Part shown: one piece after another, positions 4,064 through 31,655 of the stretch
Numbering within the stretch: the first letter of the stretch is position 1
Layout: each line of letters opens with the position of its first letter
Source of the DNA: a virus
DNA length: 31,655 nucleotides
IMG/VR virus record: IMGVR_UViG_3300006923_000085
Location: 1 to 31,655 of that record
Strand: one strand, 5' to 3'
Notes under the pieces: model-generated
The model's database searches: none
What the model saw: the letters and a program-made list of their open reading frames with translations, nothing else
What the model was told of the DNA's origin: nothing
Position numbers and translations under genes: made by a program

Positions 4064-5053
4064 CTATATATCTATTTGAACTTTAAAAGTTAATGGTAAA
4101 TCCGTTGGCTTCTTTAATGGTCTAGCTAATTTTGCCACCGCCATTAAATCATTATTATTATCATACAACCCTACTGTTGTAATAAATGGGCCGGCGCCAG
4201 CACCAGTCATAGAAGGTGTATATGAAAACCTATCAGTAGAACCTGTTAATGGAGATTTCGTCCATAGATTATTATACGCTTGCTGTATTTCACCTGCGCT
4301 TGTTGTATCGCTACTTACCGTCCCTGTTAAGGCAGAAGTAAAGTTAGTAGAAAAATTCATTTCGTCTGGTTGACATTTACAAAAAACACTTATAGCAGTC
4401 CCTAAAACTTTTGTCTTATACTTTACAGATGTGACGGATGTGGCAACCTCTCTCATATTAGCCGCCGTTACCACAAACATTCCATCGTCAATTAAAGAAG
4501 CACCTATTGTATTGCCAGTAGATTTTTGAATGAATTGTCCAGAGCCAGAATCATAATAATCACCTGCAATACTATCACCTGCATAATTAACACCTGTAAC
4601 TGTGGCAGTCATTCCCCCTTTTTCAATTCCTAAATCAAACAGCCTTTTTCTTAATGTAAATATACCAATATCATTTACACCCGCTGCATTAATTGCCCCT
4701 GTTGTTGTGCCTGTAAAACTATTCGTAAACCCTCTATTACTTAACAACATTCCAACACTCATAAAATAACCCGACTTTGACCCTGTAACGCTTGCTGTTA
4801 CACCTGTCATTGAATCTTTTGGTGAAGCAACCATACCATGATCAAGTTTTCCATCAATAGCTGCAGCCATAGTTGTGCCACTCAGCCCACTTAATGTAAA
4901 TTGTCTAGAAGTTTCAAAATTACAGATATATGTATCAGCTGCAGCCAATGGAGAATAAGCGCTTTTTATTAACGGATGAGTAGGAGTAGGGACTACCGGT
5001 CCGCCAGTTACTGAACCGTCTATCATTGTCTGTTGTATTATAGTGTTTGGCAT
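4064..5053 (-). CDS. Virion structural protein, shared C-terminal module (copy C)
   Basis: A 329-residue protein, 9 bases after the LamG protein, with AGAGAAG before ATG. Its last 110 residues resemble copies A and B: the EMNFSTNFTSALTG stretch and, close to the end, PFITTVGLYDNNNDLMAVAK followed by PLKKPTDLPLTFKVQIDI. The rest is rich in Gly, Thr and Ala (for example GMTATVTGVNYAG), typical of beta-rich fibre segments; one Cys pair (CKC) lies within the second half. No LamG domain was found. It is probably a fibre or connector subunit that docks through the same C-terminal module. Confidence 0.65.
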   Translation of the reverse strand: MPNTIIQQTMIDGSVTGGPVVPTPTHPLIKSAYSPLAAADTYICNFETSRQFTLSGLSGTTMAAAIDGKLDHGMVASPKDSMTGVTASVTGSKSGYFMSVGMLLSNRGFTNSFTGTTTGAINAAGVNDIGIFTLRKRLFDLGIEKGGMTATVTGVNYAGDSIAGDYYDSGSGQFIQKSTGNTIGASLIDDGMFVVTAANMREVATSVTSVKYKTKVLGTAISVFCKCQPDEMNFSTNFTSALTGTVSSDTTSAGEIQQAYNNLWTKSPLTGSTDRFSYTPSMTGAGAGPFITTVGLYDNNNDLMAVAKLARPLKKPTDLPLTFKVQIDI

Positions 5054-5062
5054 ATTTCTTCT

Positions 5063-7426
5063 CTAAAAGTCCAATTTAACTTGGCCACCTAATGTAAGAG
5101 CCTCATCTTTTCTTACAGGTTTAGATAGTTTTGCAATGGCTAACAAATCATTAGTATGGTTATACAGCCCAACACTAGTAATATAAGTAGCTGGCTCGTC
5201 AAATATGCTTCCACCAGTCTCCGGATTAACTCCACTGGGATTACCAGAGAAATTCATTTCACTTCCCGATGCGACCGCGTCAACTAACAATCTTCCACGA
5301 TCAACTTGTGAATTATAAACAACACGCTGGAAATTAAAAGCCGTATTATTATGTCCTGTAACAGCAAAGCCAAAATCACCCGTTGCTCCGCTCGCAGGGA
5401 ATGTAAAATCTAAACGAGCATTAGGGTCATCGCCATCAATAGTTACTAACCCTAAATCATAAAAAACCAACCCGATCCTTTTTATAGAATCTTGTATTGT
5501 TTTTCTTATTAATCTACCTTGAGTATTTTTACTATCTACAGGGTTATTAAGTTGTGGTTGATCAAAATAAAGAAAATCTCTTGGAATACCGGAGACTTGC
5601 AAGTCCGTAATTGTATTTCCGCTTACACCATTAGTTATATCCTTAGAATCCAACAATTTAACAATTCCATTACCCACAACACTACCAGTATTAGAAGATA
5701 TATTACCTAGTACTGCGCTGCCATCAACCATACCACCAGAAATATCAGCTCCAGTTATACCATTCATATTATTAAAATACCACCAAGCTGCAATATTAGA
5801 AGCAGAAGAGGTGCCGGTTAATGCCGTATTTTTAAAATTAGTAAAACTTAAACCTAAAGGATTAGCGCCATTAGATTGAGCGTCCGTAGGATCAAGATTA
5901 ATAAGTTTTCCTACTCCGTCTTTAAAGCCAGTAGTGCCGTCTAGTAGTCGTTGATTCCATACTCTTACATGCGCTACTTGACCATCATACAACCCCTCTA
6001 ATTGTGAATCGTATTGATCAGCTAACGCGCCCCAATCTCCCGTTCTTACTCCATCATTCCTATTAAAATTGGAGGCTCCAATATAAACATTATTACCAGT
6101 TGGAGCGTTTACAATACCTGCCGTATACAAGGCTGTTTGTTTAATAGGTATTCTTTGGTCTATCATATTAGCTTGAATAGTAGGTCCACCCGCTGCATCT
6201 GAACCCATTAATCGCGGAAACACTTGTTCTTTATTTGGTAATTTATAGCCGTCTATATAACCCATCACTACGCCAGCGCCTCGATCCGCTGAAGCATTAT
6301 TGCCGGGATCTCCTATTTCATTAATATCCCAAGAAACTACTATATGATGAAAATCACCATCATACATATCTATACCTACATCTGCTGGCACAAACAAACC
6401 AGAAGCTTGAACATTAGGTTGAGCAAAATCTTCAGAAAATGAAGCTCCTGTATCAGCATCTCTTATATAAAATCTAAAAGCTGGCTCTCTATTATCAGCA
6501 GACCTTGTAAGCTCCATTTTCATAAACTTATTTTTAGTCAACGTATCTTGGCTACTTGCTAATCTACGAAAATAAAGTACTGAGTCCGACTTCATGGGCC
6601 TGATAATAGTTTCAATAGTGCAAGCTTCTCTTATACTATCTAAATTATCACCGGCAGTATATCCTAGCCCATTTCTTGTATGAAATATAGTGCCATCAGC
6701 GACGCCATTGGTGCCATCCCCAGTAACACTTACACCAAAAAATGATTTACGACCAGTTCCCTCTTCACCACCAAATGGATTTTTCAAATCTAAAGCTGTA
6801 GTATACCCAGAAACATTTGGAGTTTCTGACCCAAAAATACCAGCGGCAATAGTATTGTATTTAGCGTTAGCTGACGCACCGTCAATAGCAGCGGTTAATG
6901 ATGTGTTGGAGTCATTAATCTGCATTTTGAAAGCAGCAGATTTAAGAGAAGAATGATATATGTCTTTTCTTATATTAATTTCTCTTAACACAGATACTTT
7001 GGTATCAGCCGATGATGAGCTTACTAACGCAGTAGTACTATTATAGTCATTATCTGCCCGATACAAATAACCTTGAGCATATCTAAAAAGATCTTGACTT
7101 GATAATTTAGAATTAGGATTAGTAGAGGATCTATAGGTTTGATCCGAAGAACTTAAAAACACACCAGTAGTGATGTTTGCTGTAAGAGCTTGTCCAACTA
7201 AAACTTGATTATCGAAATTCCAACTATATTTTATTTCTTTAGAGTCAGTTTCATTAAATGTAGGGTTGGTTCCCGACTTAAAAACATTTAATTTACCTAA
7301 AGACCTAACCCCTGTAAGCAAATGGAGGTGGCTAGCACATGGACTATCCTCCGATATAGAGATAGTTTGCTCTTCGACAAATGGTCGAGGTTGAATTTCG
7401 TTTTCTGCGAACGCTTTATATGCCAT
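5063..7426 (-). CDS. LamG-domain adhesin-like virion protein with shared C-terminal module (copy B)
   Basis: A 787-residue protein. Residues about 220-500 form a LamG/concanavalin-type beta-sandwich: CTIETIIRPMKSDSVLYFRR, DGDFHHIVVSWDIN, GYIDGYKL, and YDGQVAHVRVWNQRLLDG, the usual order of strands ending in 'xGxVxxVRVWNxxLL'. Residues about 640-787 carry the module shared with its neighbours: GLVFYDLGLVTIDGDDPNAR, EMNFSGNPSGVNPETGG and YITSVGLYNHTNDLLAIAK. The N-terminal 200 residues are not recognised. LamG domains in phage tails usually bind carbohydrates, so this is a candidate receptor-binding protein. There is no good Shine-Dalgarno sequence before the ATG, only AAGAAAAAAT, unlike the neighbours, so expression may depend on the gene before. 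Confidence 0.7.
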   Translation of the reverse strand: MAYKAFAENEIQPRPFVEEQTISISEDSPCASHLHLLTGVRSLGKLNVFKSGTNPTFNETDSKEIKYSWNFDNQVLVGQALTANITTGVFLSSSDQTYRSSTNPNSKLSSQDLFRYAQGYLYRADNDYNSTTALVSSSSADTKVSVLREINIRKDIYHSSLKSAAFKMQINDSNTSLTAAIDGASANAKYNTIAAGIFGSETPNVSGYTTALDLKNPFGGEEGTGRKSFFGVSVTGDGTNGVADGTIFHTRNGLGYTAGDNLDSIREACTIETIIRPMKSDSVLYFRRLASSQDTLTKNKFMKMELTRSADNREPAFRFYIRDADTGASFSEDFAQPNVQASGLFVPADVGIDMYDGDFHHIVVSWDINEIGDPGNNASADRGAGVVMGYIDGYKLPNKEQVFPRLMGSDAAGGPTIQANMIDQRIPIKQTALYTAGIVNAPTGNNVYIGASNFNRNDGVRTGDWGALADQYDSQLEGLYDGQVAHVRVWNQRLLDGTTGFKDGVGKLINLDPTDAQSNGANPLGLSFTNFKNTALTGTSSASNIAAWWYFNNMNGITGADISGGMVDGSAVLGNISSNTGSVVGNGIVKLLDSKDITNGVSGNTITDLQVSGIPRDFLYFDQPQLNNPVDSKNTQGRLIRKTIQDSIKRIGLVFYDLGLVTIDGDDPNARLDFTFPASGATGDFGFAVTGHNNTAFNFQRVVYNSQVDRGRLLVDAVASGSEMNFSGNPSGVNPETGGSIFDEPATYITSVGLYNHTNDLLAIAKLSKPVRKDEALTLGGQVKLDF

Positions 7427-7442
7427 TTCATTTTATTTTTTC

Positions 7443-8318
7443 TTAATATTGCAACCTAACTGCAAATACCTTTTCAGTATCAAAATCTTTCTTTACAGGG
7501 GGTGCAGTTTTAGCTACAGCCAAAAGTTGATTATCACCATTATACAAACCAACAGTAGTAATAAATGTAGTCGGACTGCCTGTTAAATTAGAAGAAATTG
7601 AACCTAAAGAAGCGTTTGCAATGGCGGTTGGGTTGTTAGAGTAATTAAATTCTTGATTAAATGCTCTTGTAAAGAATACACTTCTCTTTAACATATTTAA
7701 GCTAATAAAGCTTAAATTATTAATCGCTACATTACCAGCAGTAGCGCCAGGCCCAAACACAAACCCTGAAGATGAATCTATCAAAAAGTTAGTGTCGCTC
7801 GAATAATCACCACCGTGAAATACCATTGTTCCAGTATCATAAAAAACAGTCCCTACAATATTGGTAGTATCTGACTTTTCTACTAAATCACCTTTACGAC
7901 CAACGGCTCCAGAAATAGATTGTTCTGGTTGATCAATAATGACTTTATTAGCTTGTGTCCCAAAAGAAAATGTTCCAGTTACACTGCCCGACAAAATAGC
8001 ATCATCAACCGTAGTTCTACCAATAGTAATAACTCTAGAAATACCAGTAGTAGCAACATTATTTTGAGCTACTGGTATTCTATTAGCGGCAGAAGAAGAA
8101 AAGAAATAGTTTGAAATATTACGAAAAGCTGCGCTCAAAGGAGTGCTTGTAGTAGTTCCCTTAGCGTTAACTAAAAAACCAGTAGAAGTAGCTTCCATTA
8201 CAAAAGCATTAATGTTTCTTTCTTGAGCTGCTGTAGCTGAAGTAATTTCATAATTTGTTTTAGTCAATACTTCTGTATTAATTACATCACGGCCTAAATC
8301 ATAATTATTTATAGACAT
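7443..8318 (-). CDS. Virion structural protein, shared C-terminal module (copy A)
   Basis: A 291-residue protein. Its last 130 residues contain VGTVFYDTGTMVFHGGDYSS, then FNQEFNYSNNPTAIAN, then FITTVGLYNGDNQLLAVAK and PPVKKDFDTEKVFAVRLQY. This C-terminal pattern recurs in the next two genes downstream and is one I associate with structural proteins of marine T4-like phages. The N-terminal half is Thr/Ser/Ala-rich and not recognised. The start has AAGGA seven bases before ATG, directly after the 190-residue gene. Likely a baseplate rim or short-fibre component; the module may be an assembly or attachment domain. No enzyme motif was seen. Confidence 0.65.
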   Translation of the reverse strand: MSINNYDLGRDVINTEVLTKTNYEITSATAAQERNINAFVMEATSTGFLVNAKGTTTSTPLSAAFRNISNYFFSSSAANRIPVAQNNVATTGISRVITIGRTTVDDAILSGSVTGTFSFGTQANKVIIDQPEQSISGAVGRKGDLVEKSDTTNIVGTVFYDTGTMVFHGGDYSSDTNFLIDSSSGFVFGPGATAGNVAINNLSFISLNMLKRSVFFTRAFNQEFNYSNNPTAIANASLGSISSNLTGSPTTFITTVGLYNGDNQLLAVAKTAPPVKKDFDTEKVFAVRLQY

Positions 8319-8984: not shown

Positions 8985-9515
8985 TTATTTTGTAGTTGTT
9001 TTATCGACAGTTGTTTCAGTAGCCGGTGCTTTCTTTCTAGCTCTTGGCTTTACTTCTGGTGAAACCTCACTAACTTCAAATGGAAAATCATCAGAATTTT
9101 TAGGGTTTCTAAAAATAACCTTTGTAGGAACAATCACATTCCTCTTGATAATCTCCATCTTTGCATCAATATCGTCGTGAAATCTATCAATATAAATAAT
9201 GCTTGCTTTCACAATATTTTCTTCAAAGCGCCTATCCAATTCACCAAATTCAACTGATGTATTAAAAAGATTGCTTGCTTTTAATGACTCTTCAGCGCTT
9301 GGGCTAAAAGTATCATTATTATCATCAATGGAAATAACTTTGATAGAATCAGACTTTTGAGCAGCGGCGTCAGCAAGTTTTAACGTAGCTTGTCCCGCAT
9401 AAGTACCAACCTCTAAAATATTAGTAGTATTTTTATTTATCATATCTTTAATTAAACCATAAAGAGCATCTGCTGCATTATCGGATAACTGTTTAAAACG
9501 ATTAAGGTAATTCAT
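8985..9515 (-). CDS. Class I SAM-dependent methyltransferase-like protein
   Basis: A 176-residue soluble protein whose first 125 residues have a Rossmann-type methyltransferase layout. Motif I is ILEVGTYAGQATLKLA (acidic E35, glycines G37 and G41), the second strand ends in the acidic ISIDD (D64, D65), and the fourth strand is SIIYIDRFHDD with D110 and H113, like the 'iDGxH' motif of the Methyltransf_24 group. The last 35 residues are a Lys/Thr/Ala/Pro-rich tail, probably disordered. It has one of the strongest ribosome binding sites here (GGAGGT). It sits between the wedge and adhesin genes. The substrate is unknown: a virion protein, a glycan or a host molecule are all open. It could also be a non-catalytic relative, because the G of 'DGxH' is R here. 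Confidence 0.6.
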   Translation of the reverse strand: MNYLNRFKQLSDNAADALYGLIKDMINKNTTNILEVGTYAGQATLKLADAAAQKSDSIKVISIDDNNDTFSPSAEESLKASNLFNTSVEFGELDRRFEENIVKASIIYIDRFHDDIDAKMEIIKRNVIVPTKVIFRNPKNSDDFPFEVSEVSPEVKPRARKKAPATETTVDKTTTK

Positions 9516-14584: not shown

Positions 14585-16429
14585 TTAATATCCGGCGTCG
14601 GTAGTTCCAGCACCTTGAAGATTTGCTGTAGATTGATCAGCGGTTCGGCCTATAATATCAAAGTTAGGATATTTTAACTCCCATACTGCGTCAACGGGGA
14701 ACTTTAAAATGCCACTACTAGTGTTGGCATTAATATTAAGTTCTGTACCTGAATAAGTTCTAGTTCCAACAGTAGTGGTTTTATTAATTATTTTTAGCTC
14801 TGGAATTGATCTAACTTTTTGCAATGATTGCAGCCGAGCTTGGATATCGGGTATAACAATACTATCATTAAAATTAGTGCGAGCAGTATCAAACACTCTT
14901 TGTAGCACTAAAATACACTCCATAAGAGCTTCTTGTGCATTAGCATTTGACTGAGGAACAATTGTAAAATTAACCCCAATATTAATTATACGTCCATTAG
15001 TTAATTTTATTGTATCAGAAAAGGATTTAAAATTTTTAATATATGTTTCTATATTATTTTTTATCACATCTGAGGATAGTGTTAACTGTTTCTGATTATT
15101 TCTCGTTACTAAAAACAACTCAACACCCATACTATTGTTCGGATCTTTTCTTACAAGACTTCTAAACACACTTCCAAACTGCGAAGGCATAGACATTATT
15201 CTGGCTTGATAATCTTGTAAAGTTACGCATCGTAATTGTGACCCCATATTATATACAGCATTCTCTCTAATAGATGAAATTGTTTCTGCTTGCTCACCAC
15301 CAGAAGCTTGATCACCATTAGAGCAAGCTATAGTATTAGTAATGTTTGTTACTACAGTAGCTGACACCGACTGCAAATTAGGCGTTGCAAATACTAAATC
15401 TTTATTTATTATTCTTGTTAAAGTGCCCGCACCTACATTAGTGACCACCCCTCCCCCTGATCTATAATTTATAGTTATATCAGTGTTTTGAGGAGCTACA
15501 CCAAGTGATTTAGTCTTTAAAAAATTAGTGGAATCAATCGCTGCTGGCGCGAAGCCTGAAGGAGATCCACGTAATGTTGGAGGTAAAACAAAATCATTAG
15601 GATTTGGAATAACATCGGCATCAGCCTCCATTAATACTCCAGGCCCAAATCTTATAGAAGTTAATCCAGTAGGGTCGCGTTCCACTACATATCTTTTTGG
15701 AACTCTTTTTAATTTCATAACATATCCAGCATCACCTGAACCACTACCTGTATTAACGTCACCTATAAAAATAGTATCTCTAGCTAAACTATCAACTTCA
15801 TAATACTCACTTCCATCAGATGCAGAAACAGACATTACTTCATTAATATTAGAGTCGGGCAAAGTAATTTTTAAAAACTTTACTGGGTCATTAGCCCTAT
15901 ATTTAAAAATCTTTGAAATTCCTGCAACCGCAGAAACGCCTGACACACTTACTGTAGTAGTGGCACCTGCAGTTTGTATTATTCTATTCGATGGACTTGA
16001 AAAATTTACATCACTTAAAGTTTCAAACGATACTATAGGGTCATAATTAGTTAAAACAGTTGCGCCTTTTTTTAAAGTAAACAAAGTTTCTGCAGATGTT
16101 GTATTACTAAAATCAGCAGATACTGCAAGATTTACTACGGCTGGTGTGGAATTTTTAGGCTTATATCCAAAATTCTGAGCCAATGAAACTATATTTTTTA
16201 ATTCTACAGCACGATTTATATATGCCTCATTTACTTGTCGATCAACATTAAAGCTTAGAATATCGCCCACATAAGCGATTAACTCTAATAGAGCCATGCC
16301 TCCAGATGCATCATTAAAATCGCGCCAATCACTAGGAAAGTGTCTTTTAACATAATCCATAAGGTCAGATTTAATAGAATCAAAATCTTTGGATAAATAA
16401 TTAATATCTCTATTTGAAGTTATAGGCAT
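14585..16429 (-). CDS. Baseplate wedge protein gp6/gpJ-like (Baseplate_J family)
   Basis: A 614-residue wedge protein. The N-terminus (SKDFDSIKSDLMDYVKRHFP, then GGMALLELIAYVGDILSFNV and the Asp/Arg-rich helix after it) and the central block (about 380-430: ISSIRENAVYNMGSQLRCVT, LQDYQARIMSMPSQFGSVFR) are characteristic of the T4 gp6 / P2 gpJ Baseplate_J family. The C-terminal block SFSDTIKLTNGRIINIGVNF also fits gp6 of T4-like phages. Two copies of gp6 per wedge make the inner ring of the baseplate. The length is close to T4 gp6 (660 residues). It follows the gp25-like gene by one base, with GAG just upstream of ATG. Confidence 0.92.
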   Translation of the reverse strand: MPITSNRDINYLSKDFDSIKSDLMDYVKRHFPSDWRDFNDASGGMALLELIAYVGDILSFNVDRQVNEAYINRAVELKNIVSLAQNFGYKPKNSTPAVVNLAVSADFSNTTSAETLFTLKKGATVLTNYDPIVSFETLSDVNFSSPSNRIIQTAGATTTVSVSGVSAVAGISKIFKYRANDPVKFLKITLPDSNINEVMSVSASDGSEYYEVDSLARDTIFIGDVNTGSGSGDAGYVMKLKRVPKRYVVERDPTGLTSIRFGPGVLMEADADVIPNPNDFVLPPTLRGSPSGFAPAAIDSTNFLKTKSLGVAPQNTDITINYRSGGGVVTNVGAGTLTRIINKDLVFATPNLQSVSATVVTNITNTIACSNGDQASGGEQAETISSIRENAVYNMGSQLRCVTLQDYQARIMSMPSQFGSVFRSLVRKDPNNSMGVELFLVTRNNQKQLTLSSDVIKNNIETYIKNFKSFSDTIKLTNGRIINIGVNFTIVPQSNANAQEALMECILVLQRVFDTARTNFNDSIVIPDIQARLQSLQKVRSIPELKIINKTTTVGTRTYSGTELNINANTSSGILKFPVDAVWELKYPNFDIIGRTADQSTANLQGAGTTDAGY

Positions 16430-16430
16430 T

Positions 16431-16964
16431 TTAGCTCTCAGGGTTGTTCAAAGTTATATCAACATTATCAGCTAATGCATTTTGATCAGCTATAACATAA
16501 GACATATTAACTCTTATTTTGTTATTACCTAATGCTGGCTCTTCTTCTTGGGTTATCATACTTATATTACGTATTCTTATATAAGGTAAATATGTTTGTA
16601 CAGCGGTTTCTATTTCTAATCTTATATTTTCAAATGTTTCTTCTCTTGTGGTGGGTTCAAATAGTTGCCCCTGCAGCACAGGTATATGAGTGCCCAACTC
16701 GGCGTGCATTACTCTTTCACCCTTAGTGGTTAAAAGAAGAGTTTTTATATTTTCTCTAACCGCACTAATAGTATCAGTGTTTCCTTGAAAAAACCCTCTC
16801 TCATAAGACTTAAGTGGGAACTTTAAATTGATAGAGTTTACATTTGCAGCATATTTTGCCTTATTAGCAAGAATTTGTTGCCTATCTTGGTCACTAGAAA
16901 CATAACCATCTGGATAAAAAGGATCTATAGTTGTTTCTGAACCCCTAAAATTTTCTCTTGGCAT
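16431..16964 (-). CDS. Baseplate wedge protein gp25/gpW-like
   Basis: A 177-residue baseplate wedge component. Residues about 63-135 match the GPW/gp25 family: TISAVRENIKTLLLTTKGER, then VMHAELGTH, then LFEPTTREETFENIRLEI, then TYLPYIRIRNI. The classical T4 form 'LLtxxGER.xxPdfG..l...LFep' is clearly visible. The N-terminal 60 residues are an extension relative to T4 gp25 (132 residues). In contractile tails gp25 joins the sheath and the wedge core with gp6 and gp53. The gene begins 13 bases after the spike stop with GAGA upstream of ATG, and ends one base before the gp6-like start. Confidence 0.9.
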   Translation of the reverse strand: MPRENFRGSETTIDPFYPDGYVSSDQDRQQILANKAKYAANVNSINLKFPLKSYERGFFQGNTDTISAVRENIKTLLLTTKGERVMHAELGTHIPVLQGQLFEPTTREETFENIRLEIETAVQTYLPYIRIRNISMITQEEEPALGNNKIRVNMSYVIADQNALADNVDITLNNPES

Positions 16965-18810: not shown

Positions 18811-19464
18811 TCAACCTATGAAATCTTCTCTAACAGAAAAATAATTCATCTTTATCTTTTTTAAAGATTTCGTTATCTTTCGACTTGGTAAATCCGTAGC
18901 CTCTCTAATATATACATAAAGTTGCTTCTTATTATAAATATTGAATCTCTCATAGTTTTTGAGTATATCATTAACTATTTCTAAAACAGCGAAATCATCT
19001 CTTGTATAGTTATCTTTGGCATCCCAATCGTCAAAGTCTCCAATGATTTCATTTATAAACTCTTCATTATGTCGCACAACTTCATCTTCCTCGTATGCAT
19101 GTATACTAATATTCTGCACAATTATATCTTGATTATCATCATCAATAAATCGTTTGTTTTTATCAGCATTACATCGCTGAATCATCCAATTTTTTGTGAT
19201 GGTGCCAAAATATGAAAAAGATTTCTTATTTTTAGTTACGTCAAACTTGCTTAACTTTTCATACAGATGAGTCATGACTTCATGCTCAATCTGCTCTCTG
19301 TCCCACAATATTTTATTAAAATTATAAGTATAGTAAATGTTTTCTACAAGTTTGCGAAAGGCAGGTTCAATGATTGCTACAAAAACTTTATGTTTTTCAT
19401 CTATGTCGTCATTTGTGTTAAACTCAACAACAGCTTCTTCTTGATCTTCACCCCAATATTTCAT
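18811..19464 (-). CDS. RNA polymerase sigma factor, T4 gp55-like (late transcription)
   Basis: A 217-residue protein that looks like a small phage late sigma factor, which would direct host RNA polymerase to late promoters. Residues about 30-105 resemble sigma region 2: a helix IIEPAFRKLVENIYYTYNF, an acidic helix EHEVMTHLYEKLSKFD, then KSFSYFGTITKNWMIQR followed by basic residues, parallel to the NPFAYF-type block in gp55 proteins of T4-like phages. The C-terminus (about 175-210), KKQLYVYIREATDLPSRKIT, has the shape of a helix-turn-helix. The start has a good site, AAAGGA, and the gene is preceded by a 74-base spacer, so it may be expressed separately. It ends one base before the 62-residue gene. 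Placing a sigma factor between hub and spike genes is unusual. An alternative is a diverged DNA-binding regulator; the region 2 resemblance makes sigma more likely. Confidence 0.6.
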   Translation of the reverse strand: MKYWGEDQEEAVVEFNTNDDIDEKHKVFVAIIEPAFRKLVENIYYTYNFNKILWDREQIEHEVMTHLYEKLSKFDVTKNKKSFSYFGTITKNWMIQRCNADKNKRFIDDDNQDIIVQNISIHAYEEDEVVRHNEEFINEIIGDFDDWDAKDNYTRDDFAVLEIVNDILKNYERFNIYNKKQLYVYIREATDLPSRKITKSLKKIKMNYFSVREDFIG

Positions 19465-19538: not shown

Positions 19539-22500
19539 TTAAGGTATATAGCCTTTTTTGTTGTATCGGCTGGCCGGGAAGGGTCTTTCAGGCCCCACTT
19601 CGGCAGCTTCTTCTACAGTTTTGGGTGTCAGATCCGGTGCTTGTTGAGCAGAATGGTCTGTAGCTTCTGGCCACTGCGATCCGGCAGATTCTCTTGCGCT
19701 TATAGTTGGGTTTCTTACTAATGTGCCTTCTAATATAGTTTGAAAACCTTGTGGTGTTATAGATTCTCTCACCTTATTTATTAAATACAATCCCTCTAAA
19801 TCAGGCATGACGCCCTTGACTATAACACTTTGAAATGCAGTTATATTAGTAGTACCATGAATAGTAATAGTTACCCTTTTCATATGATTTGCCATAAACT
19901 GAGTAACAGTATTTATTGGTATGTCTTCATTCGACCCAGCGAGTTTGGACGCGGCCGCGATGGCTTCAATCTCACGCATTTGAGCTAATCGGCCAGGGTC
20001 ATTTTGTAAAAACTTAGATACAGCTGTCCTAATCTCAGGCCGCGTTTTTTCTCCACTTTCATCCATAAATAATTGTTTATTTAATGTTACTTCACCTTTT
20101 TTGTCCGGCTCGGCCGATCCGTCATTAATAATAATACCTTTTTCAATATCATGACCATATTCCTTCAATTCTGGATGACTAGACATTAAATATGCTTTCA
20201 ATTCAGGTGCTACGTCCTTATAAGCTAAGAAATTCATTAAAGCATCCGTACTACCAGTATACTCTGCAGCTGCATCCTCAAAAGCCATAACAGTCAAAGG
20301 ATCAAAACTAGAGTTCATATCCATGCTTTCTATTAGAGAATCTATATCCTTAAAATCTAACATAATAATATCGTCAGGAAATCTAATTTTTTCTTGATCG
20401 ATACTTAAAGAATCTATAAATAAATGTTCATAATTTTTAGCATGCTGTTCCCAATCTTGACCGGCCAGAGACAGGATTTCAAATACACCCGATTCAGCTT
20501 CGCGAGCTACCAAGCTTGGATTGGGAACATTATTAACTCCCATAGATCCAGGTCTAAATATTTCTCCAAAAAATTGAGCTATAGACATATTAGAGTTAGA
20601 TTTGGATAATAAATTTTTTACTACATCTGCTCTTATGGGAATGTTAGCTACATTATCTATGGAAAATTGATCCATATTCCCAAACGACGCAGGCGCTAAT
20701 GCCGAACCGGCAGGGCTATCATCCTCACTATCATCCTGCAATGGCCCAAAAAGATCACCATAAGTAGTATCTTCAACTCTTTCAGCCTCATGAAAATGTT
20801 GCACTGTTTGGGATTCGCGGGAACCCAGTATTTTTATTGGCTGATGATTCGGCCTTGCAGCGGTCCTTCTATTTTTAGGTAAAGGAGCAAACACATTTTC
20901 TATAACAAATTTAACAAAACCTTCATTTATCTCTAACCCATCTGTTATTGAACCACCCTCAACCATACATGGGCTATGATTTCTATTATCTATTTGAGTA
21001 AAAAATCCAAATCCATTTTCTGCACCCAAACCAGATAAAAAATCACTCCAATTTGACCAATTTTTCTTTCTTTCTGGATAAACATAAGGGCCATGGTGTT
21101 TATCCTCGGGCGCCCGATACCAACCAGTTCCAAAAGGATATTGTGGATTAGTATATTTTGCCGAACCATCGTATGTGGGCCCAATTACGCGGGCTCCTTT
21201 TGCAGGGCGGGTCGTTCCGGCTCCGATTGTTTCATACCTATCATACTCAGCATATCTATTAGGGTTATTTTTAAAAACATAATATTCCCCATTTTTTACA
21301 AGCAGGGCCCAATTAATTTTTACATTCGGTGCTCCCCTATTAGCGACATCCTGCCCCAAAAATCTTGTTTCTTCTGTAGTTGAACTTCTTCGATGAACCA
21401 TAGATCTTTTCATATCTAAAGTAAGATTCACATTATGCTCGCCGGCACCGATTCTACCGCCCCACATTCCTATTTGCCCCTTATAATCTACAGGTACGTC
21501 TCCTTTAATCTTTTTTAAAAATAAAGGTCTTAGGTACTTATGTGCAAACTGGCCGTGGGGTGTGGTTGGCGACACCAACTTCAACTGCTTAAGGTTTGCT
21601 TTAACATACCCTTTAAAATCACCTGAAAATAGAGCAGCAACCATCTCTACTTGAGTTTTTGCCCAGTCTGCAATACCATCAGCAACTCTTTGAAGACCCG
21701 TCGGATTCCGGCCGGTATTATGCCTTCGATGACTATGGTCCCAGCTTGCGGCTTCGTTTTCATGACCTTTTTCACCTTTTGTTGCCATTCTGTCCCCATT
21801 ACCACCACCTTCAAATGGATAATCTATGACGCCGGCAGGGGCAACTCCACCTTCATAATCATTTGTGTTATTAACGCGTGCCGCGGTTGTGCGACTAGGA
21901 TATAGATAAGCAGGTTTGCCTGCAAAATCTAAATACCAACCAGTAGGCGTATACCAACCTTCACCATCATCAACAATAATATTACCGCCCTCATCTATCA
22001 TTGTATATATGGGAATATTTAACCCGTTGCTCATAAGATTCCTCATATCAAGGTTGCCCGCGGCCTGGTGATGGCCTTGCGTCATTTTTACCGAAGGCCA
22101 ACGGTCAACTATTCTTAATGATCCTGGCCAAGCCGGATTATAACCTAGACCAAATATATTTAAAAACTCTTTATAAGTGCCTACATAATTACCGCCCGAT
22201 AATTCAACATGACCACCCTGGGATTGTGTCTCTATAGGCGGCCCAGCCTTAAACCCCCATGCATTGTTTCCGTTTTCATAAGGAATGCCTGGGTTGCCAA
22301 AAAGTGACCAATTTTGATACTCCTTTCGCGTTATTCTACCTACTTCTACATCTTCATATGACATATTCTTGCTAAAAACGGCAGATGCATCGTCGTCTTT
22401 AGCTACTCCATAATTAAGGTTATGCAACAACCTGTCCGCGGTTCGCATCATTAGTTCCTCATCATCGCGGCCGTCCTTAAAAATTTCTGGATTTAAAACT

Positions 22501-25500
22501 CGTCTAGGCTGACCCATAGTCGACCAAGTTCTTCTCTCAATATTAAATCTAAATTGATAATTATTGGAAGGTAAATAATATTCCTGGCCACCTGCCGGCG
22601 GGCCATAATTTCTTACATCTATTGCACCATAGGTAACAATACCAGCAAACCGGCGATACCATTGTTGAGCAACTTTAGTCGTCAAATGCGCTGGTTTATC
22701 GCGGCCTTGATCAACCTTTACGCCATCTCCGTCAAAAGCTGAAGTATCATCATATATAGAAAGTTGAACTTGGCCGGCATTTTCATTAAAAAATTCTTTA
22801 AACTCATTAAATGTTTTTTCTATTTCTATAATTTTATTTTCAGCATTTTCAATTGCAAGCTCACAACCACGATAACTTTCATAAGCTGTGTTCAATTCCT
22901 TCTGCTTTATTTTAATAGTATTTAATTTATTTGCAACCTCTTTCTTTGTATGCTCTAATAAAGGTAATACACTCCTTTCATACTTCTGCCTGTTGCGTTG
23001 TTTCCAACTTTCGGCCTTGTTGCTGTTATCTTTCCACGCCCTCAACTCATGATCCCACTGATTTTGAAAATTATTTGTAGGAACATTAAACTTTTCCCAT
23101 AAGATCCATTCTTCTTTTATCTCTGGGCCGGCAATTTCATACTCATATTCTATTTCTGGATTATATATTTGTAGATATGTCGCGGTCCAACGGCCTGTTT
23201 CAGGGTCGCGGGCCATCTCACCTTGCTCGCTCTTAAACTCTGTTTGCGAAGCTACTATTCTTTTAAAATTATTAAACTTCGTCATAATGGTATTGCCCAT
23301 TATATCTTTAGTATCTATTGCCCCTTCTGGGTTTCTTTTATAACGGCCACCTGTTAACCTCTCTAATTGTAATTTTAAAGTATTGATTTGAGAAATTAGA
23401 CGTTGGCTTAGTGATAAAAGACCAGGCGATTCTGAAGGTGTAGATGGCCAAGGCTGAACTGTTGGTACAGTAGGCGCCGGTAAAGTAGGCAGGTTAACTG
23501 CCGACATGAATCCGCGTCGCGCTTCGACGAGTGCGTCAAGGAGATCCGGATCTTCAGAAAGTGCTTCTGCTTCTGCATAAAAATCAACAGTCACAGGAGC
23601 TTCGGTATCTTCATCATCTTCAGCCTCACCCGCGGTGGGCCCATATATCTTAACCCTATTTTCTTGAATTATTTCTCTATATTTTGTTATTTCTTGATTT
23701 CTTTTTGTTTCAGCAGTGCCTTGATCAAACTCCTCAACATACTTATTGCCGATTTCGTCCCAAGACTTGAGAAAACTTTGACGTTGTTCAAAACGGGTAT
23801 TATTGTATATTTTCCCTGTTAAGAAATCTAAATCTAAAGCCTCATTATATATCATTTCAATAGGCATGCCGGCCATTAACACTTCTGCTACTCTTTCTCT
23901 AATGAGATTTTCAAAATATGAAGCTAGATACTCTCTATATAAATTATGCCATTTCTTACATAATAAATTCCAATTATCTTTACTAGATAATCTCCAATTA
24001 TCATAACTTACAGGCATTTTGAATACTTTATCATCCTGGTTATAAGTTACAATCATCCAAAATCTGCCGCCGCGATCTTGAGCTTTATATTCAGTAGGGT
24101 TCAAAGGATCAAACCCATCTGGAGAACCACCAGAAACTACTTCATTTCCTTCGGTGTCCAAATTAATTTCTTGCTTCCAATCCGGTATATAAACCCATAA
24201 CTTTCCGTTGTTGTCAGGATAGGGTGCAAGACCCTTTGACCTCAGCACATCGACATAGTTGCGCGTGTTGATTTCTCTTACATGGCCACGCATTGGAGCA
24301 CCTATCATATTTCCAACATTTGGGGGTGGTGTAAAAATAGCTCGTATTATCTTGTCGGTTGCAGAACTTTGCTTTCCCGCATATACCGCGACAGCGCCGC
24401 TCACAAATGATGAGGATGGATCTTTATCAAGCAACTTGGTGGCCCTGCTGATGCCCAGGTATCGAACTTTCTCGGCCATGAGCTTTTGCAAATTAAGAAC
24501 TCCACGCGTAGCCTCTTGATCAAAAGCCGCCGGTGGTAAAAATCTTTCTTTTAATCTTATAACAGCTTCTTGTATTCTTTCTTCCATCCCATGTTTTCTA
24601 TTAACTGATGAAACCTTAGTTTGGAATGCTGTGCTTAATTTAGATTCATCACCTAGGCTATGATAATAAAAAGAAGGCGCTTTACTATTATCTAAGCCTT
24701 GTGGCCCACATCGATTAGCCATACATATTGAAACACTGTCCATTATAGCCCCTAAAAAATAATAAACAGGTTGGCTTTCATACGTTTTTATTAACTTAGT
24801 AGGAGTTCCATCCGATGGCTGGCCCTGCTCGTCAGCGAAAGCGTCAGTGAAATCACCCGTTTCATTACCAATATCTTCAGGATTAGGGTCAGGTATTCTT
24901 TTAAAAATTTGTTTATGTGATTTAATAGAATTAGCCTCTGGATATCCTTTTTGAGGTTTCCTAACTGCCTCATTGGCCTCCATTATATCTGCTTCAGTGA
25001 AGTATTCTTGGCCCGCTGGGATACCTTCTAATATGTCTCCTACAGAACTTTTTATTCCAGTAACCGACACTACTGCCCCGTCACCGCTGAACTCTTCAAT
25101 AGCTTCTTGCCACTTTGCGGTAAATTCTTCGTAGGATTGAGGTGTACCTGTATACTTTCCATCTTTATCTTTTTCATGACTCTTAATATATTCATCATTA
25201 AGGCGCTGCTGTCTTTCTATTAACATATCTCTCATAGTAAATTCATTACCACTCATATCAGTAATAATTTGATCTAATATATCAGTATCAAGAAGCATCT
25301 TAAGTTTACGAGCTACATTAGACATAACAGTAGAGACCATACCTAAAGAATCATCATCTCTAAGCTCTATATTTAATTCTAACTTGCCCATTTCATTAAA
25401 GCCAAAGTCGTATTTACTAATATTAACAATACCTGATGACCAGTACCCACCATTGCCTAAATTACGAATAGGTACACGCATACGCTTATGATTTGGATCG

Positions 25501-26165
25501 TTAGGGTCATTTTCTAATTTTGGTGGTGGCATAGCGGCACTATAACCTGGAATAATTTCTGGATTAGCCCAGCCATAAATAATTAAAAACTTGGAACCAA
25601 AAGTAGCTAATTTAGAATACTCCCATCTTTCATCTAATATTTTAGTATCATTTATTGACATTCTAACTTTAAACACTCGCGTTCCTAAAATATCGTTTCC
25701 ACCATAATCAACCTGCAAATCAGTAAGGCCAACGCCACCCGATGGATCTTGCATTTGGGTGCTTGATTCAGCCATCATAATTCCATTTACTTTTTTACTA
25801 TCTAACCCCCCTTGGATTGATTTTATTGTATAAATGTTTATAAAACGCTCTTTTATAGCTTCTTCAATGTGATTAAAAGCTTCCGGATCAATTTGATATT
25901 TCTCATTATAAGACTCAGATCCTGCAGTGCCGTCATCATAACCTACAGGCACTCTAGTGTCAGTGAGTGATTTAAACATTTTCTTATATTCATCAACATC
26001 AAATAACCCTATTAATTGCACAAATGGCACTAAACTACTAATAGCCTGATTATTAGCTTTTCTTTTATCGTTCCACCCCTTAATGGTGTCGGGCGGCGTA
26101 ACAGTGGTAGTATTAGCTAAATCAGCTTTTGTTATACCAGTAGCTGGTGCAGAGGTTTCTGTCAT
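19539..26165 (-). CDS. Giant (2208-residue) probable baseplate hub protein, gpD/gp27 position
   Basis: The largest gene here. It starts on the TAATG shared with the LysM gene (AAGG upstream). By position between gpX-like and gpV-like genes it should be the tail hub (P2 gpD / T4 gp27). The N-terminal part (to about residue 300) is beta-rich with strings such as FGSKFLIIYGWANPE, a style common in phage hub proteins. The C-terminal end (about 2093-2148) reads RVTITIHGTTNITAFQSVIV followed by GLYLINKVRESITPQGFQT, resembling the last beta-barrel of gpD-like hubs. Between them lie a proline-rich linker (about 890-915), a long coiled coil (about 1050-1130), a Trp/Gly/Tyr-rich middle (about 1230-1750) and a His cluster (1468-1482). 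No lysozyme or peptidase motif was recognised. Known hubs are about 350-450 residues, so most of the chain is unexplained. The hub role is an inference from context and the C-terminus. Confidence 0.5.
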   Translation of the reverse strand: MTETSAPATGITKADLANTTTVTPPDTIKGWNDKRKANNQAISSLVPFVQLIGLFDVDEYKKMFKSLTDTRVPVGYDDGTAGSESYNEKYQIDPEAFNHIEEAIKERFINIYTIKSIQGGLDSKKVNGIMMAESSTQMQDPSGGVGLTDLQVDYGGNDILGTRVFKVRMSINDTKILDERWEYSKLATFGSKFLIIYGWANPEIIPGYSAAMPPPKLENDPNDPNHKRMRVPIRNLGNGGYWSSGIVNISKYDFGFNEMGKLELNIELRDDDSLGMVSTVMSNVARKLKMLLDTDILDQIITDMSGNEFTMRDMLIERQQRLNDEYIKSHEKDKDGKYTGTPQSYEEFTAKWQEAIEEFSGDGAVVSVTGIKSSVGDILEGIPAGQEYFTEADIMEANEAVRKPQKGYPEANSIKSHKQIFKRIPDPNPEDIGNETGDFTDAFADEQGQPSDGTPTKLIKTYESQPVYYFLGAIMDSVSICMANRCGPQGLDNSKAPSFYYHSLGDESKLSTAFQTKVSSVNRKHGMEERIQEAVIRLKERFLPPAAFDQEATRGVLNLQKLMAEKVRYLGISRATKLLDKDPSSSFVSGAVAVYAGKQSSATDKIIRAIFTPPPNVGNMIGAPMRGHVREINTRNYVDVLRSKGLAPYPDNNGKLWVYIPDWKQEINLDTEGNEVVSGGSPDGFDPLNPTEYKAQDRGGRFWMIVTYNQDDKVFKMPVSYDNWRLSSKDNWNLLCKKWHNLYREYLASYFENLIRERVAEVLMAGMPIEMIYNEALDLDFLTGKIYNNTRFEQRQSFLKSWDEIGNKYVEEFDQGTAETKRNQEITKYREIIQENRVKIYGPTAGEAEDDEDTEAPVTVDFYAEAEALSEDPDLLDALVEARRGFMSAVNLPTLPAPTVPTVQPWPSTPSESPGLLSLSQRLISQINTLKLQLERLTGGRYKRNPEGAIDTKDIMGNTIMTKFNNFKRIVASQTEFKSEQGEMARDPETGRWTATYLQIYNPEIEYEYEIAGPEIKEEWILWEKFNVPTNNFQNQWDHELRAWKDNSNKAESWKQRNRQKYERSVLPLLEHTKKEVANKLNTIKIKQKELNTAYESYRGCELAIENAENKIIEIEKTFNEFKEFFNENAGQVQLSIYDDTSAFDGDGVKVDQGRDKPAHLTTKVAQQWYRRFAGIVTYGAIDVRNYGPPAGGQEYYLPSNNYQFRFNIERRTWSTMGQPRRVLNPEIFKDGRDDEELMMRTADRLLHNLNYGVAKDDDASAVFSKNMSYEDVEVGRITRKEYQNWSLFGNPGIPYENGNNAWGFKAGPPIETQSQGGHVELSGGNYVGTYKEFLNIFGLGYNPAWPGSLRIVDRWPSVKMTQGHHQAAGNLDMRNLMSNGLNIPIYTMIDEGGNIIVDDGEGWYTPTGWYLDFAGKPAYLYPSRTTAARVNNTNDYEGGVAPAGVIDYPFEGGGNGDRMATKGEKGHENEAASWDHSHRRHNTGRNPTGLQRVADGIADWAKTQVEMVAALFSGDFKGYVKANLKQLKLVSPTTPHGQFAHKYLRPLFLKKIKGDVPVDYKGQIGMWGGRIGAGEHNVNLTLDMKRSMVHRRSSTTEETRFLGQDVANRGAPNVKINWALLVKNGEYYVFKNNPNRYAEYDRYETIGAGTTRPAKGARVIGPTYDGSAKYTNPQYPFGTGWYRAPEDKHHGPYVYPERKKNWSNWSDFLSGLGAENGFGFFTQIDNRNHSPCMVEGGSITDGLEINEGFVKFVIENVFAPLPKNRRTAARPNHQPIKILGSRESQTVQHFHEAERVEDTTYGDLFGPLQDDSEDDSPAGSALAPASFGNMDQFSIDNVANIPIRADVVKNLLSKSNSNMSIAQFFGEIFRPGSMGVNNVPNPSLVAREAESGVFEILSLAGQDWEQHAKNYEHLFIDSLSIDQEKIRFPDDIIMLDFKDIDSLIESMDMNSSFDPLTVMAFEDAAAEYTGSTDALMNFLAYKDVAPELKAYLMSSHPELKEYGHDIEKGIIINDGSAEPDKKGEVTLNKQLFMDESGEKTRPEIRTAVSKFLQNDPGRLAQMREIEAIAAASKLAGSNEDIPINTVTQFMANHMKRVTITIHGTTNITAFQSVIVKGVMPDLEGLYLINKVRESITPQGFQTILEGTLVRNPTISARESAGSQWPEATDHSAQQAPDLTPKTVEEAAEVGPERPFPASRYNKKGYIP

Positions 26166-28667: not shown

Positions 28668-31655
28668 CTACATCCCAAGGCCAGTTTCATAAAAGTTTTT
28701 TCCTACGACTTCAGAAACCAGTTTACCATCCATTCTAATTTCAGGAGTGCCAGTTTCTTTTTGAGTTTTAATCATCTCTGCCATTAATTTATTTTGTTTC
28801 TTTAATTCCTGCATCATTTCACTATTACCCAACGGCACAACTGCTTCTGGCCCAGCCTCACCTATTAGGGCTGTTGTGGGCCTATTAACAATTCCTCCAG
28901 CAGCTAATGAAGGAATAGCAAGTGCCTTTCTATACTTATCTCCGCCAGCACCATATAGCGACCTATTAATGCTACTATACATTTTTGTTGCTGCACCGCC
29001 GCTTGTTTGACCAGTACCTAAAGCTATCAAATGAGGTGCTGGAATACCCATAGAAGATATTAAGCTACTTGTGCCTAATTTTTCAGTTAATTTTTGAAAA
29101 TTAGCTTCCGTAGGGGTTTTTTCATATCCACCAATAGCTTGATTCATCCACTTAGAAAGACCGCTCGGTGAGCCATGATCAAATCTTCCACCGCTCTTAA
29201 TATGGTCTTCAATTAACTTTACACTTCTTCGGCGGCCTTTTCCATAGCCACCAGTAAGATTAAAAACCTTATTCAAACCTTTTGTTGCTATACCGCCAAC
29301 AGCATTACCTAACATACCACTTAAAGGCGGCGGGATACCCATTGCTCCCAATGCCATTCCAGCACCAACACCAAGACCTGCACCTACACCAGCAGTTCCT
29401 GCTCGTTTCCAATCACCGGTTTGTGCAAAAACATTTCCAAATGTCATTAACCCGCCTGCTGCACCTGCTCGGCCCATACCACCAAAACCACCCATTTTTC
29501 CCAATCTATATCCCGTTTTTTGGGCATAACCACTCATTCCACCTCCAGCACCCCAAGCCTGTGATGCGTAATCAGATTGACCTTGCCCTCTGCGAAAAGC
29601 ATCAAGAACACCTCCGCCTTGAAATCCCGGAACACCAATAGATCCTAACTCTTTGGCAACACCAGCATTAATCGGTAAACCTTTTCGTATTCTTTCAGTA
29701 GGTACAACAACTTCACCTCTACCCTCTTCACCAACCATCATTAATGTTGGGCTATTTACATACTTACCTTTTGCTGCTTGATCCATTCCTATTGCACTTC
29801 GTAAGGCCATATGGCTACCTTGTCGAGCAGAAGGCATTCCTGGCATTCCTCCGCCCATCGTTCCCATTCCCAAATATTGAGCTGCCGTTTTGCTGGCAGT
29901 GCCTCCACCAATCATCCCAGCAAGAGCCTGAGAGCCTGTTTGTACCATTGATCTTCCTACATTACCACCTTGAGCAAAAGCAGCTAAACCGGCGCGGAGC
30001 GTTCCACCGAATGCCTTGAATTCTTCAGTAAGTTTATATAATCCACTTTCTGTACTCGAAAGTCCTGCTGTTATTCCTGCCTTTGCGCCTGCCGTCATTG
30101 CTGCTTGAAGATCCCCGCCTTGCGACCATGAAGTCAAACCTGCCATTACACCCGTAGACATCTCTTTGGGAAGATTTTTATTCAACACAAATGCAAGCTC
30201 TTTATTATATTCTCTAAAAGCCATCTTAAGCCATGGAGGGCCTTTCTTTTCTTTCTTGGCTCTTTCGTCAATCAGATCATCCATCTTGTGTTCATAATGC
30301 TGACGCCAATATTCTATCATAGCAGCTTGTTGATGCACCACCTCTTTCTGTACGGCGAGAGCCCCAGATGTTCTATAAGATTGCGACCCAAACGCTCCTT
30401 GCTCTCCTGTTCGATTCATCGCGCCTCTTGTAGATCTTACCACACCACCATTTTGAAAACCCGGTACGCCAATTCCCGCTAATGCAGAAGCTGCTCTTCC
30501 ACCAACACCAATACCACTTCTTAATGCTGAGCGAGAAATAACTACTTCACCACCAGCTTCACCTACGATAGCAGATCTGCCGTAACGAATACTACCTAAA
30601 GCATCCCTCGCGGGCCTTCTCACCGAACTCGCGCGCGTGCGCGCGGCGCCGAGGCGTTCGATTTCGATGACACCGTGCCCAGCGTCTTCTGCAGCATCAG
30701 CTAATTTGTATTGCTGTTTGATCAATCCGGAGATGGTTCTATTCAGATTTTGCCTTAATTTATCTTCTTTTTCAAGGCTCTCAAGAAGTTCTTTTCGGCG
30801 GACGCCTTCCGGATCGTCTTCGTCCAGCATCCAGTCGAGTTCATGTTGTAATTCTTTTGTCCGGTCATAGCTGCTGGATCTGTCCGCGGCCGCAGCTTCT
30901 TCTTCTGCGCGGGCTCCACCATAATCCTTTCTCATACTCTGTTCTGTTTGCCTGAAACCCATCGAAGACCAATCCCACGCATAATTCTCTCCAACCCATG
31001 AGATTCCCTTAGCTAAAGCTTTTCCAAACATATCACCTACTATATCAAACAACTTCTCAAAATATACTGCAGCTCCTTTACCTTTTGTAGCTGCACCCAA
31101 ATCTTTTAGCTGAAATTTATCAGTGACCCAATCTATAAATGCTTCAGTTTGTGCTCGGGGGCCATCTGGGTCATCACTGGCAAGTCCAAGAGCATCACTA
31201 AATGTAGTAGAAAGGCCACCAGCGATACCCATCACGCCGTCCTTCATTATTTCGATCAAACTTTTTCCAGACATTATTTTATCATTTAAAGCTTGAAATT
31301 CTCTACTTGCTTGTGGGACTGCTCTGGCCATCCCAACAAAAGCCTCTAGTGTACCTCCGAGTCCGTTGGCAATACCTTCGACGTGTAATTCCATATCTTC
31401 CAGATACCGACCCGTGGACTGAATCCGAATGCCCTGCTTGCCCAGATCTTGAGTAGTAGCTTTTATACCCTTTTGAATACGGTTCATGATCTCTTCGCGG
31501 CCTTTAGCACCTTTTACATTTAATCTTGCAAGCTCCTCGGCCGTGCCCACAATATTTATAAATTCATCGCCAAAAATTCGTTGTGCTTTAGCTAATGTAT
31601 CTTGAATATTTCCTACATCTGAAAACGCAGTTTTTATACCTGACCAGTCTTGTAA
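28668..31655 (-). CDS. Tail tape measure protein, 5'-truncated by the window edge
   Basis: This is the C-terminal 995 codons of a tail tape measure protein, which sets tail length and fills the tube lumen. The reading frame stays open to the last base of the window, so the in-frame GTG at 31550 is not the real start; 35 codons precede it here. The protein has long stretches rich in Gly, Ala and Met, a charged coiled-coil segment (about 30650-30890), and three copies of the motif GEAGPEAVVPL or a close variant (about 30560, 29725 and 28855), which is typical of tape measure C-termini. The first two copies are followed by IGVPGFQxGGV. A glycine-rich hydrophobic stretch near 29290-29400 could insert into membrane. 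The next gene follows after 9 bases and encodes a tube-tip protein, as expected for gene order in contractile tails. Part of the gene (about 30600-30900) is unusually GC-rich. Family call is firm; the N-terminus is missing. Confidence 0.85.
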   Translation of the reverse strand, partial: LQDWSGIKTAFSDVGNIQDTLAKAQRIFGDEFINIVGTAEELARLNVKGAKGREEIMNRIQKGIKATTQDLGKQGIRIQSTGRYLEDMELHVEGIANGLGGTLEAFVGMARAVPQASREFQALNDKIMSGKSLIEIMKDGVMGIAGGLSTTFSDALGLASDDPDGPRAQTEAFIDWVTDKFQLKDLGAATKGKGAAVYFEKLFDIVGDMFGKALAKGISWVGENYAWDWSSMGFRQTEQSMRKDYGGARAEEEAAAADRSSSYDRTKELQHELDWMLDEDDPEGVRRKELLESLEKEDKLRQNLNRTISGLIKQQYKLADAAEDAGHGVIEIERLGAARTRASSVRRPARDALGSIRYGRSAIVGEAGGEVVISRSALRSGIGVGGRAASALAGIGVPGFQNGGVVRSTRGAMNRTGEQGAFGSQSYRTSGALAVQKEVVHQQAAMIEYWRQHYEHKMDDLIDERAKKEKKGPPWLKMAFREYNKELAFVLNKNLPKEMSTGVMAGLTSWSQGGDLQAAMTAGAKAGITAGLSSTESGLYKLTEEFKAFGGTLRAGLAAFAQGGNVGRSMVQTGSQALAGMIGGGTASKTAAQYLGMGTMGGGMPGMPSARQGSHMALRSAIGMDQAAKGKYVNSPTLMMVGEEGRGEVVVPTERIRKGLPINAGVAKELGSIGVPGFQGGGVLDAFRRGQGQSDYASQAWGAGGGMSGYAQKTGYRLGKMGGFGGMGRAGAAGGLMTFGNVFAQTGDWKRAGTAGVGAGLGVGAGMALGAMGIPPPLSGMLGNAVGGIATKGLNKVFNLTGGYGKGRRRSVKLIEDHIKSGGRFDHGSPSGLSKWMNQAIGGYEKTPTEANFQKLTEKLGTSSLISSMGIPAPHLIALGTGQTSGGAATKMYSSINRSLYGAGGDKYRKALAIPSLAAGGIVNRPTTALIGEAGPEAVVPLGNSEMMQELKKQNKLMAEMIKTQKETGTPEIRMDGKLVSEVVGKNFYETGLGM
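28830..30573 (-). repeat. Threefold repeated module inside the tape measure gene
   Basis: Three degenerate protein-level copies of a GEAGPEAVVPL-type motif sit at about 30541-30573, 29705-29744 and 28830-28862, roughly 836 and 869 bases apart (about 280-290 residues). The first two are followed by IGVPGFQxGGV (30439-30476 and 29604-29645). The third is preceded by IPSLAAGGIV. Between them a second glycine-rich unit, of the form AQgGdxxrAmxxGaxAg, occurs near 30060-30133, 29910-29982 and 29350-29433. The spacing suggests an old internal duplication of a domain of about 285 residues. The copies are clear only in protein; no long DNA identity was seen. Confidence 0.55.
30600..30900. other. GC-rich island within the tape measure gene
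   Basis: Bases 30601-30660 contain 46 G or C of 60 (77%), 30781-30840 about 55% and 30841-30900 about 52%, against about 32% at 31561-31620. At 30630-30645 there are 16 bases of strict purine-pyrimidine alternation, (CG)4 TG (CG)3, flanked by more GC. The reading frame passes through intact and encodes a charged coiled coil and an Arg/Ala-rich linker, with CGC, GCG, GTC and CTG codons that neighbouring stretches use little. A recombined segment from a GC-richer phage is one explanation; local amino-acid composition accounts for part of it. Confidence 0.6.

Follow-up and report, generated by a model that had tools for sequence, protein, structure and literature searches.

The 2208-residue protein encoded at positions 19539-26165 of the window (the whole 31,655-nucleotide stretch analysed, from a 31.7-kb IMG/VR record) belongs to a family with the predicted fold of a gp27/gpD-type contractile-tail baseplate hub. 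The hub has been enlarged from ~650 to 2208 residues mainly by one insert of ~1,300 residues. Taken as a whole, the explanation that we consider likely is that the gene encodes the trimeric central hub and that the insert surrounds the spike as a peripheral collar.

The open reading frame begins with ATG and is read from the minus strand, as the complement of 19539-26165. At the window's base composition, the chance of 2208 stop-free codons is ~1e-74. A second contig, IMGVR_UViG_3300025066_000066, encodes a hub protein 100% identical to that of the window, and contigs from other metagenomes encode hubs of 2085-2173 residues with the same architecture and ~30-36% identity to it. Given the identical contig and the recurrence of the architecture in other metagenomes, the frame is not an assembly artefact; the original prediction of a gene of this length was correct. 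The phage is uncultured and apparently marine, judging from the types of phage and contig that it resembles. The features of the gene and its neighbours are listed in Table 1.

Table 1. Features of the giant hub gene and adjacent tail genes, in window coordinates (residues are those of the 2208-residue protein)
Feature	Positions	Strand	Evidence
Whole hub gene, 2208 aa	19539..26165	-	Open reading frame, identical second contig, syntenic family
N block, residues ~26-298, predicted first hub barrel, GWN...PFVQL...YGW signature	25272..26090	-	N-block HMM, AlphaFold2 model of L068, PDB fold matches
Insert site 1, residues ~299-460, ~170 aa in window protein	24786..25271	-	Anchor-distance table
VYYFLG helix block, residues ~463-510, conserved, inter-barrel core	24636..24779	-	Family alignment, anchor distances
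Insert site 2 (giant insert), residues ~511-1837, without known family	20655..24635	-	Anchor distances, profile searches, dN/dS
Proline-rich linker inside insert, residues 880-925	23391..23528	-	Composition
Coiled-coil-like helix inside insert, residues ~1059-1123	22797..22991	-	Heptad score; helix in low-confidence model
W/G/Y-rich centre of insert, residues 1130-1480	21726..22778	-	Composition
C block, residues ~1838-2170, predicted remaining inter-barrel domain and second hub barrel	19656..20654	-	C-block HMM, phrog_52, fold
gp53/gpX-like baseplate adaptor, 106 aa	26165..26485	-	phrog_7145 baseplate wedge E 6.8e-8; family profile against A-1(L) gp16 (8kea_J) E 0.0018
Late sigma factor resembling T4 gp55, gene located between those of hub and spike	18811..19464	-	phrog_234 E 1.9e-5; Sigma70_r2 E 0.005, below Pfam cut-off
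Probable central spike, 548 aa	16978..18624	-	Identity from position
gp25 baseplate wedge protein	16431..16964	-	PF04965 E 1.8e-9
gp6/gpJ baseplate wedge protein	14585..16429	-	phrog_219 E 5.9e-29

The tail operon runs from the tape measure (a separate gene at 28668-31550, from PHROGs) through a 720-residue protein, adaptor, hub, late sigma factor, probable spike, gp25 and gp6 to more baseplate and fibre-like proteins. An adjoining gp53/gpX-like adaptor with spike, gp25 and gp6 genes nearby is the neighbourhood of a hub. The gene had been described as lying between gpX-like and gpV-like genes; the gpX-like neighbour is there, but the gene directly downstream is the late sigma factor (phrog_234), and the spike-like gene comes next. 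A late sigma factor gene separates hub and spike in every relative whose contig extends that far, and the order gp53-like, hub, late sigma, spike, gp25, gp6 is kept wherever a contig spans it, in compact- and giant-hub phages alike. The probable spike of 548 residues has no database match, and no lysozyme domain in Pfam or PHROGs.

Other genes of these operons can be mentioned here. The fibre-like frames at 4064-5053, 5063-7426 and 7443-8318 have a common C-terminal motif, approximately T[ST]VGLYxxxNxLxAxAKxxxPxKK, which suggests a common C-terminal module in these three adjacent sequences (4064-8318). Within the tail/fibre operon, the 176-residue product of 8985-9515 looks by eye like a class I SAM methyltransferase (LEVGTYAGQATL). 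In one relative, a 185-residue frame between the spike and gp25 genes (L097:7483-8037) looks by eye like a GIY-YIG-type homing endonuclease (MVIYCTVNLKNGKKYVG).

Searching 50,697 phage records by tblastn with the giant protein and with its compact homologue gave no match to either; the insert is thus a sizeable virion module without an assignment. With gp6 as bait, 54 loci were obtained and the genes in the hub slot were compared. They are homologous, with conserved N- and C-terminal ends and a variable middle. Family HMMs built from the N block (residues ~26-298) and the C block (~1838-2170) identify one gene, always in the same syntenic slot, in ~14 distinct uncultured phages, with products of ~631 to 2208 residues. 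The N-block HMM matches every member, including those of 631-720 residues, and members of 669-714 residues that were left out of HMM building score E <= 1e-31. By locus, the hub sizes are L096 ~631, L068 669, L069 714, L097 ~882, L061 1025, L044 1060, L042 ~1400, L065 1690+, L064 1844, L051 1987, L012 2084, L017 2119, L028 2159, L073 2166, L020 2169 and the window 2208. A gp6 tree gives three clades with starred support for each: phages with compact hubs (669-714), those with intermediate ones (1060-1987), and the window's clade (2084-2208). Some inner forks are open. Hub equivalents were not recognisable in Mel-JY01, immuto or LR756508, and W03, at E 0.02, scores close to chance. Wider viral scans using the insert returned only contigs already in the set, and a scan of genome contigs with gp6, made in search of the host, gave no match.

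The strongest evidence for gp27/gpD hub identity comes from the structural matches of a predicted model, that of the 669-residue member L068 (AlphaFold2, 30 aligned rows, mean pLDDT 68.8, with values mostly of 72-94 for the first barrel and of 73-92 for the last strands). The model matches T4 gp27 (1k28_D) with a Foldseek E of 1.6e-5 and Z of 15.1; other Z values are 17.1 for the A-1(L) hub, 16.8 for the phi812 hub, 16.2 for Mu gp44 and 14 for VgrG. In both Foldseek and VIA-align 2, the top rows are throughout tail hubs and their relatives, including P1, R2 pyocin and eCIS proteins. Some of the hub matches in BFVD bear the annotations tail lysin, peptidase M15B or tail lysozyme. The two barrels and inter-barrel domain of the hub fold are found in the L068 model, with matches over residues ~26-646 at Z 14-17; strands of the first barrel span 30-213 and those of the second 474-646, with both insert sites between. 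The fold is transferred from L068 to the window protein through the N- and C-block HMMs.

Sequence searches reach less far. Profile searches against the PDB found no solved hub, the C block has a weak match to a PHROGs tail protein (phrog_52, E 2e-4), and Phage_GPD (PF05954) has no match in the window protein. What PF05954 defines is a subfamily in Pfam, not the hub fold as such. With no match to it and only the weak one to phrog_52, the protein is filed under the hub fold and not under PF05954. The fold matches of L068 and the synteny support the earlier call of a gpD/gp27-type hub, with the extra mass between hub parts at the two ends. The further expectation of two gp27-type barrels at the ends was roughly right, except that the C block also includes the remaining inter-barrel domain and the core amounts to ~800 residues.

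To locate the enlargement, distances can be taken between core anchors common to the family: the N block, a Y[YF]xLG helix and the C block, which begins near an IPI motif. In the window's clade, the extra ~1,300 residues lie at one site between the two barrels, from the Y[YF]xLG helix (469 in the window protein) to the IPIR block (1842). Site 1, from the N block to the helix, measures 55 residues in L096, up to 94 in compact members (L096, L068), 143-171 in the window's clade and 236-667 in intermediate-sized members (620-667 in L051 and L064). Site 2, from the helix to IPI, measures 64-79 residues in L068, L096 and L097, rises to ~145-524 in the intermediate clade and reaches 1306-1405 in that of the window; the values for L061, L044, L042 and L051 are slightly high, the anchor proline having been taken ~18 residues further on. 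Growth was thus at site 2 in the window's clade and mostly at site 1 in the other large-hub clade. Compared as profiles, the inserts of these two clades show no relation (probability 0.2% or less). Within the window's clade, the insert is conserved block by block at roughly 35-40% identity, and dN/dS (NG86, three pairs of relatives) is 0.12-0.36 for the insert and 0.05-0.30 for the C block. The insert is under purifying selection.

The sequence features noted at the outset were all found again. The stretch at residues 880-925 is 17% proline, the helix at ~1059-1123 has the best heptad score of the whole protein (3.67, compared with 1.62 +/- 0.62 in shuffles, of which one in 100 reaches it), the centre at 1130-1480 is enriched in W (2.3x), G (1.8x) and Y (2.0x), and the C-terminal strand sequence RVTITIHGTTNITAFQSVIV begins at residue 2097. 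No Pfam or PHROGs family fits the insert; DUF4478 and other sub-threshold Pfam matches were dismissed as coiled-coil or chance. Against the PDB, the insert profile gives only a match of coiled-coil type (best E 0.007, profile positions 385-452). No internal repeat, second hub or likeness to other window proteins was detected in the insert. An AlphaFold2 model of residues 640-1837 from a 10-row alignment is of low confidence (pLDDT 35.6, pTM 0.26), and no fold was read from it. Since the insert has neither a Pfam or PHROGs family nor a confident model, we infer its function from other evidence.

The lengths of neighbouring proteins provide some of this evidence. As the hub runs from ~631 to 2208 residues, the gp53-like protein stays at 104-107 and gp6 at 600-619. 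The spike has 386-397 residues with compact hubs versus 498-600 with large ones, and gp25 has 177 residues in the window's clade versus 132-142 in compact-hub and intermediate phages; the extra gp25 length is apparently N-terminal. Longer spike and gp25 proteins in giant-hub phages would be expected if both pack against the insert. The lengthening follows the clades, so that few independent events are represented.

In the proposed arrangement, the protein would serve as the central hub in a contractile tail, a trimer of the gp27/gpD type, with two barrels (the first ~300 and last ~330 residues) capping the tail tube and holding the spike. The lineage-specific insert of ~1,300 residues at one inter-barrel site, about 430 kDa per trimer, would project from the hub and encircle the spike as a peripheral collar lying against the wedges, presumably as a structural module facing the host envelope. 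For the hub-anchored shell or collar by itself, we see roughly even chances.

The main alternative is that the insert comprises hydrolase domains acting on the cell wall or on surface polymers, unrecognised in sequence, which would open the envelope at tail contraction as in A-1(L) gp15. We regard this as a serious possibility, although somewhat short of an even chance. Hub-borne precedents exist in A-1(L) gp15 (PMC10966104), 0305phi8-36 gp147 (PMC2147016) and ME3_37 with its M23 and SNase domains, and both the lysin, peptidase and lysozyme annotations among the BFVD matches and the lack of a detected lysozyme domain in the spike (Pfam, PHROGs) are in keeping with it. Yet no hydrolase family of Pfam or PHROGs appears in eight hubs, giant and mid-sized, nor in further members; 1,300 residues far exceed the 150-210 of each A-1(L) enzyme domain; and compact-hub phages manage without the insert. 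That hubs with extra domains mostly carry enzymes counts against a collar and favours an enzyme, whereas the parallel lengthening of spike and gp25, the lack of any known enzyme domain and the great size of the insert speak for a peripheral shell.

That the insert is mainly a module for receptor binding or adhesion, exposed on the hub, appears improbable. Its W/G/Y-rich centre is compatible with carbohydrate binding, it diverges faster than the C block, and another clade has unrelated inserts; but the operon already encodes several fibre-like proteins, wedges normally shield the hub until contraction, and conservation spans the whole insert with no evident hypervariable tip in the alignment. 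We give very little credence to the idea that the product is instead a fibre, tape-measure or lysis protein. In favour of this one could cite the size, the coiled coil and the lack of a direct PF05954 match, but the core fold, the synteny, the phrog_52 tail match and a tape measure encoded elsewhere all argue for a hub. Beyond the collar itself, a broader evolutionary reading, which we hold to be doubtful, would make the inter-barrel domain a docking platform, with two lineages independently enlarging the same hub, each at its own site and with a module of 500-1,300 residues unrelated to the other; the window's insert would then be a new fold, either a spike-enclosing shell or a new class of envelope-opening enzyme. 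The graded syntenic series of ~631-2208 residues allows a minimal hub to be compared directly with inflated versions, and makes it testable what the hub gains, at which site, and whether spike and wedge lengthen too.

Compared with known systems, the core model shares its fold with T4 gp27, P2 gpD, Mu gp44 and VgrG (Z 14-16) and the gene has the same place between gp53-like and spike genes, but no sequence similarity was detected between the window family and these solved members. The phage hubs T4 gp27, P2 gpD and Mu gp44 have ~330-390 residues, whereas the window's has a core of ~800 plus the insert of ~1,300. The best structural match of the core is gp15 of Anabaena phage A-1(L) (Z 17.1), another hub with extra domains inserted within it; the window's 106-residue neighbour resembles A-1(L) gp16 (E 0.0018). 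In gp15, a lysozyme and an endoglucanase are inserted at residues 56-430, near the N end, and a peptidase is C-terminal; the domains were named by fold similarity, and the endoglucanase and peptidase are active in vitro, on host cells (PMC10966104). The window's insert, which is three times larger and has no enzyme match, instead follows the first barrel. Bacillus phage 0305phi8-36 gp147 was described in 2007 as a "hyperplastic" T4 gp27 homologue, in which the gp27 part makes up ~1/4 of the protein and domains that degrade the cell wall are attached at its ends (PMC2147016). The window hub, like gp15 and gp147, has its extra domains in the hub chain itself, as the single-site insert. The annotated hub of Acinetobacter phage ME3 (ME3_37, L102:37999-44988) has 2329 residues, with M23 and staphylococcal-nuclease-like (SNase) domains ahead of its C-terminal part; no sequence relation between it and the window hub was detected. 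In gp147 and ME3_37, giant hubs too, the hub is flanked by the extra domains, recognised hydrolases among them, whereas the window's excess is internal. In phi812, T5 pb3 and other enlarged hubs, insertions likewise spread the barrels over 600-700 residues, but the matched chains total below ~950, unlike the window's 2208. With gp147 and ME3_37, giant hub size was already known, and these proteins and A-1(L) gp15 contradict the original view that a length five times that of known phage hubs is itself novel. Enlarged hubs in general are not new; what does look new is a purely internal expansion of ~1,300 residues without a recognised domain, together with a graded series of relatives.
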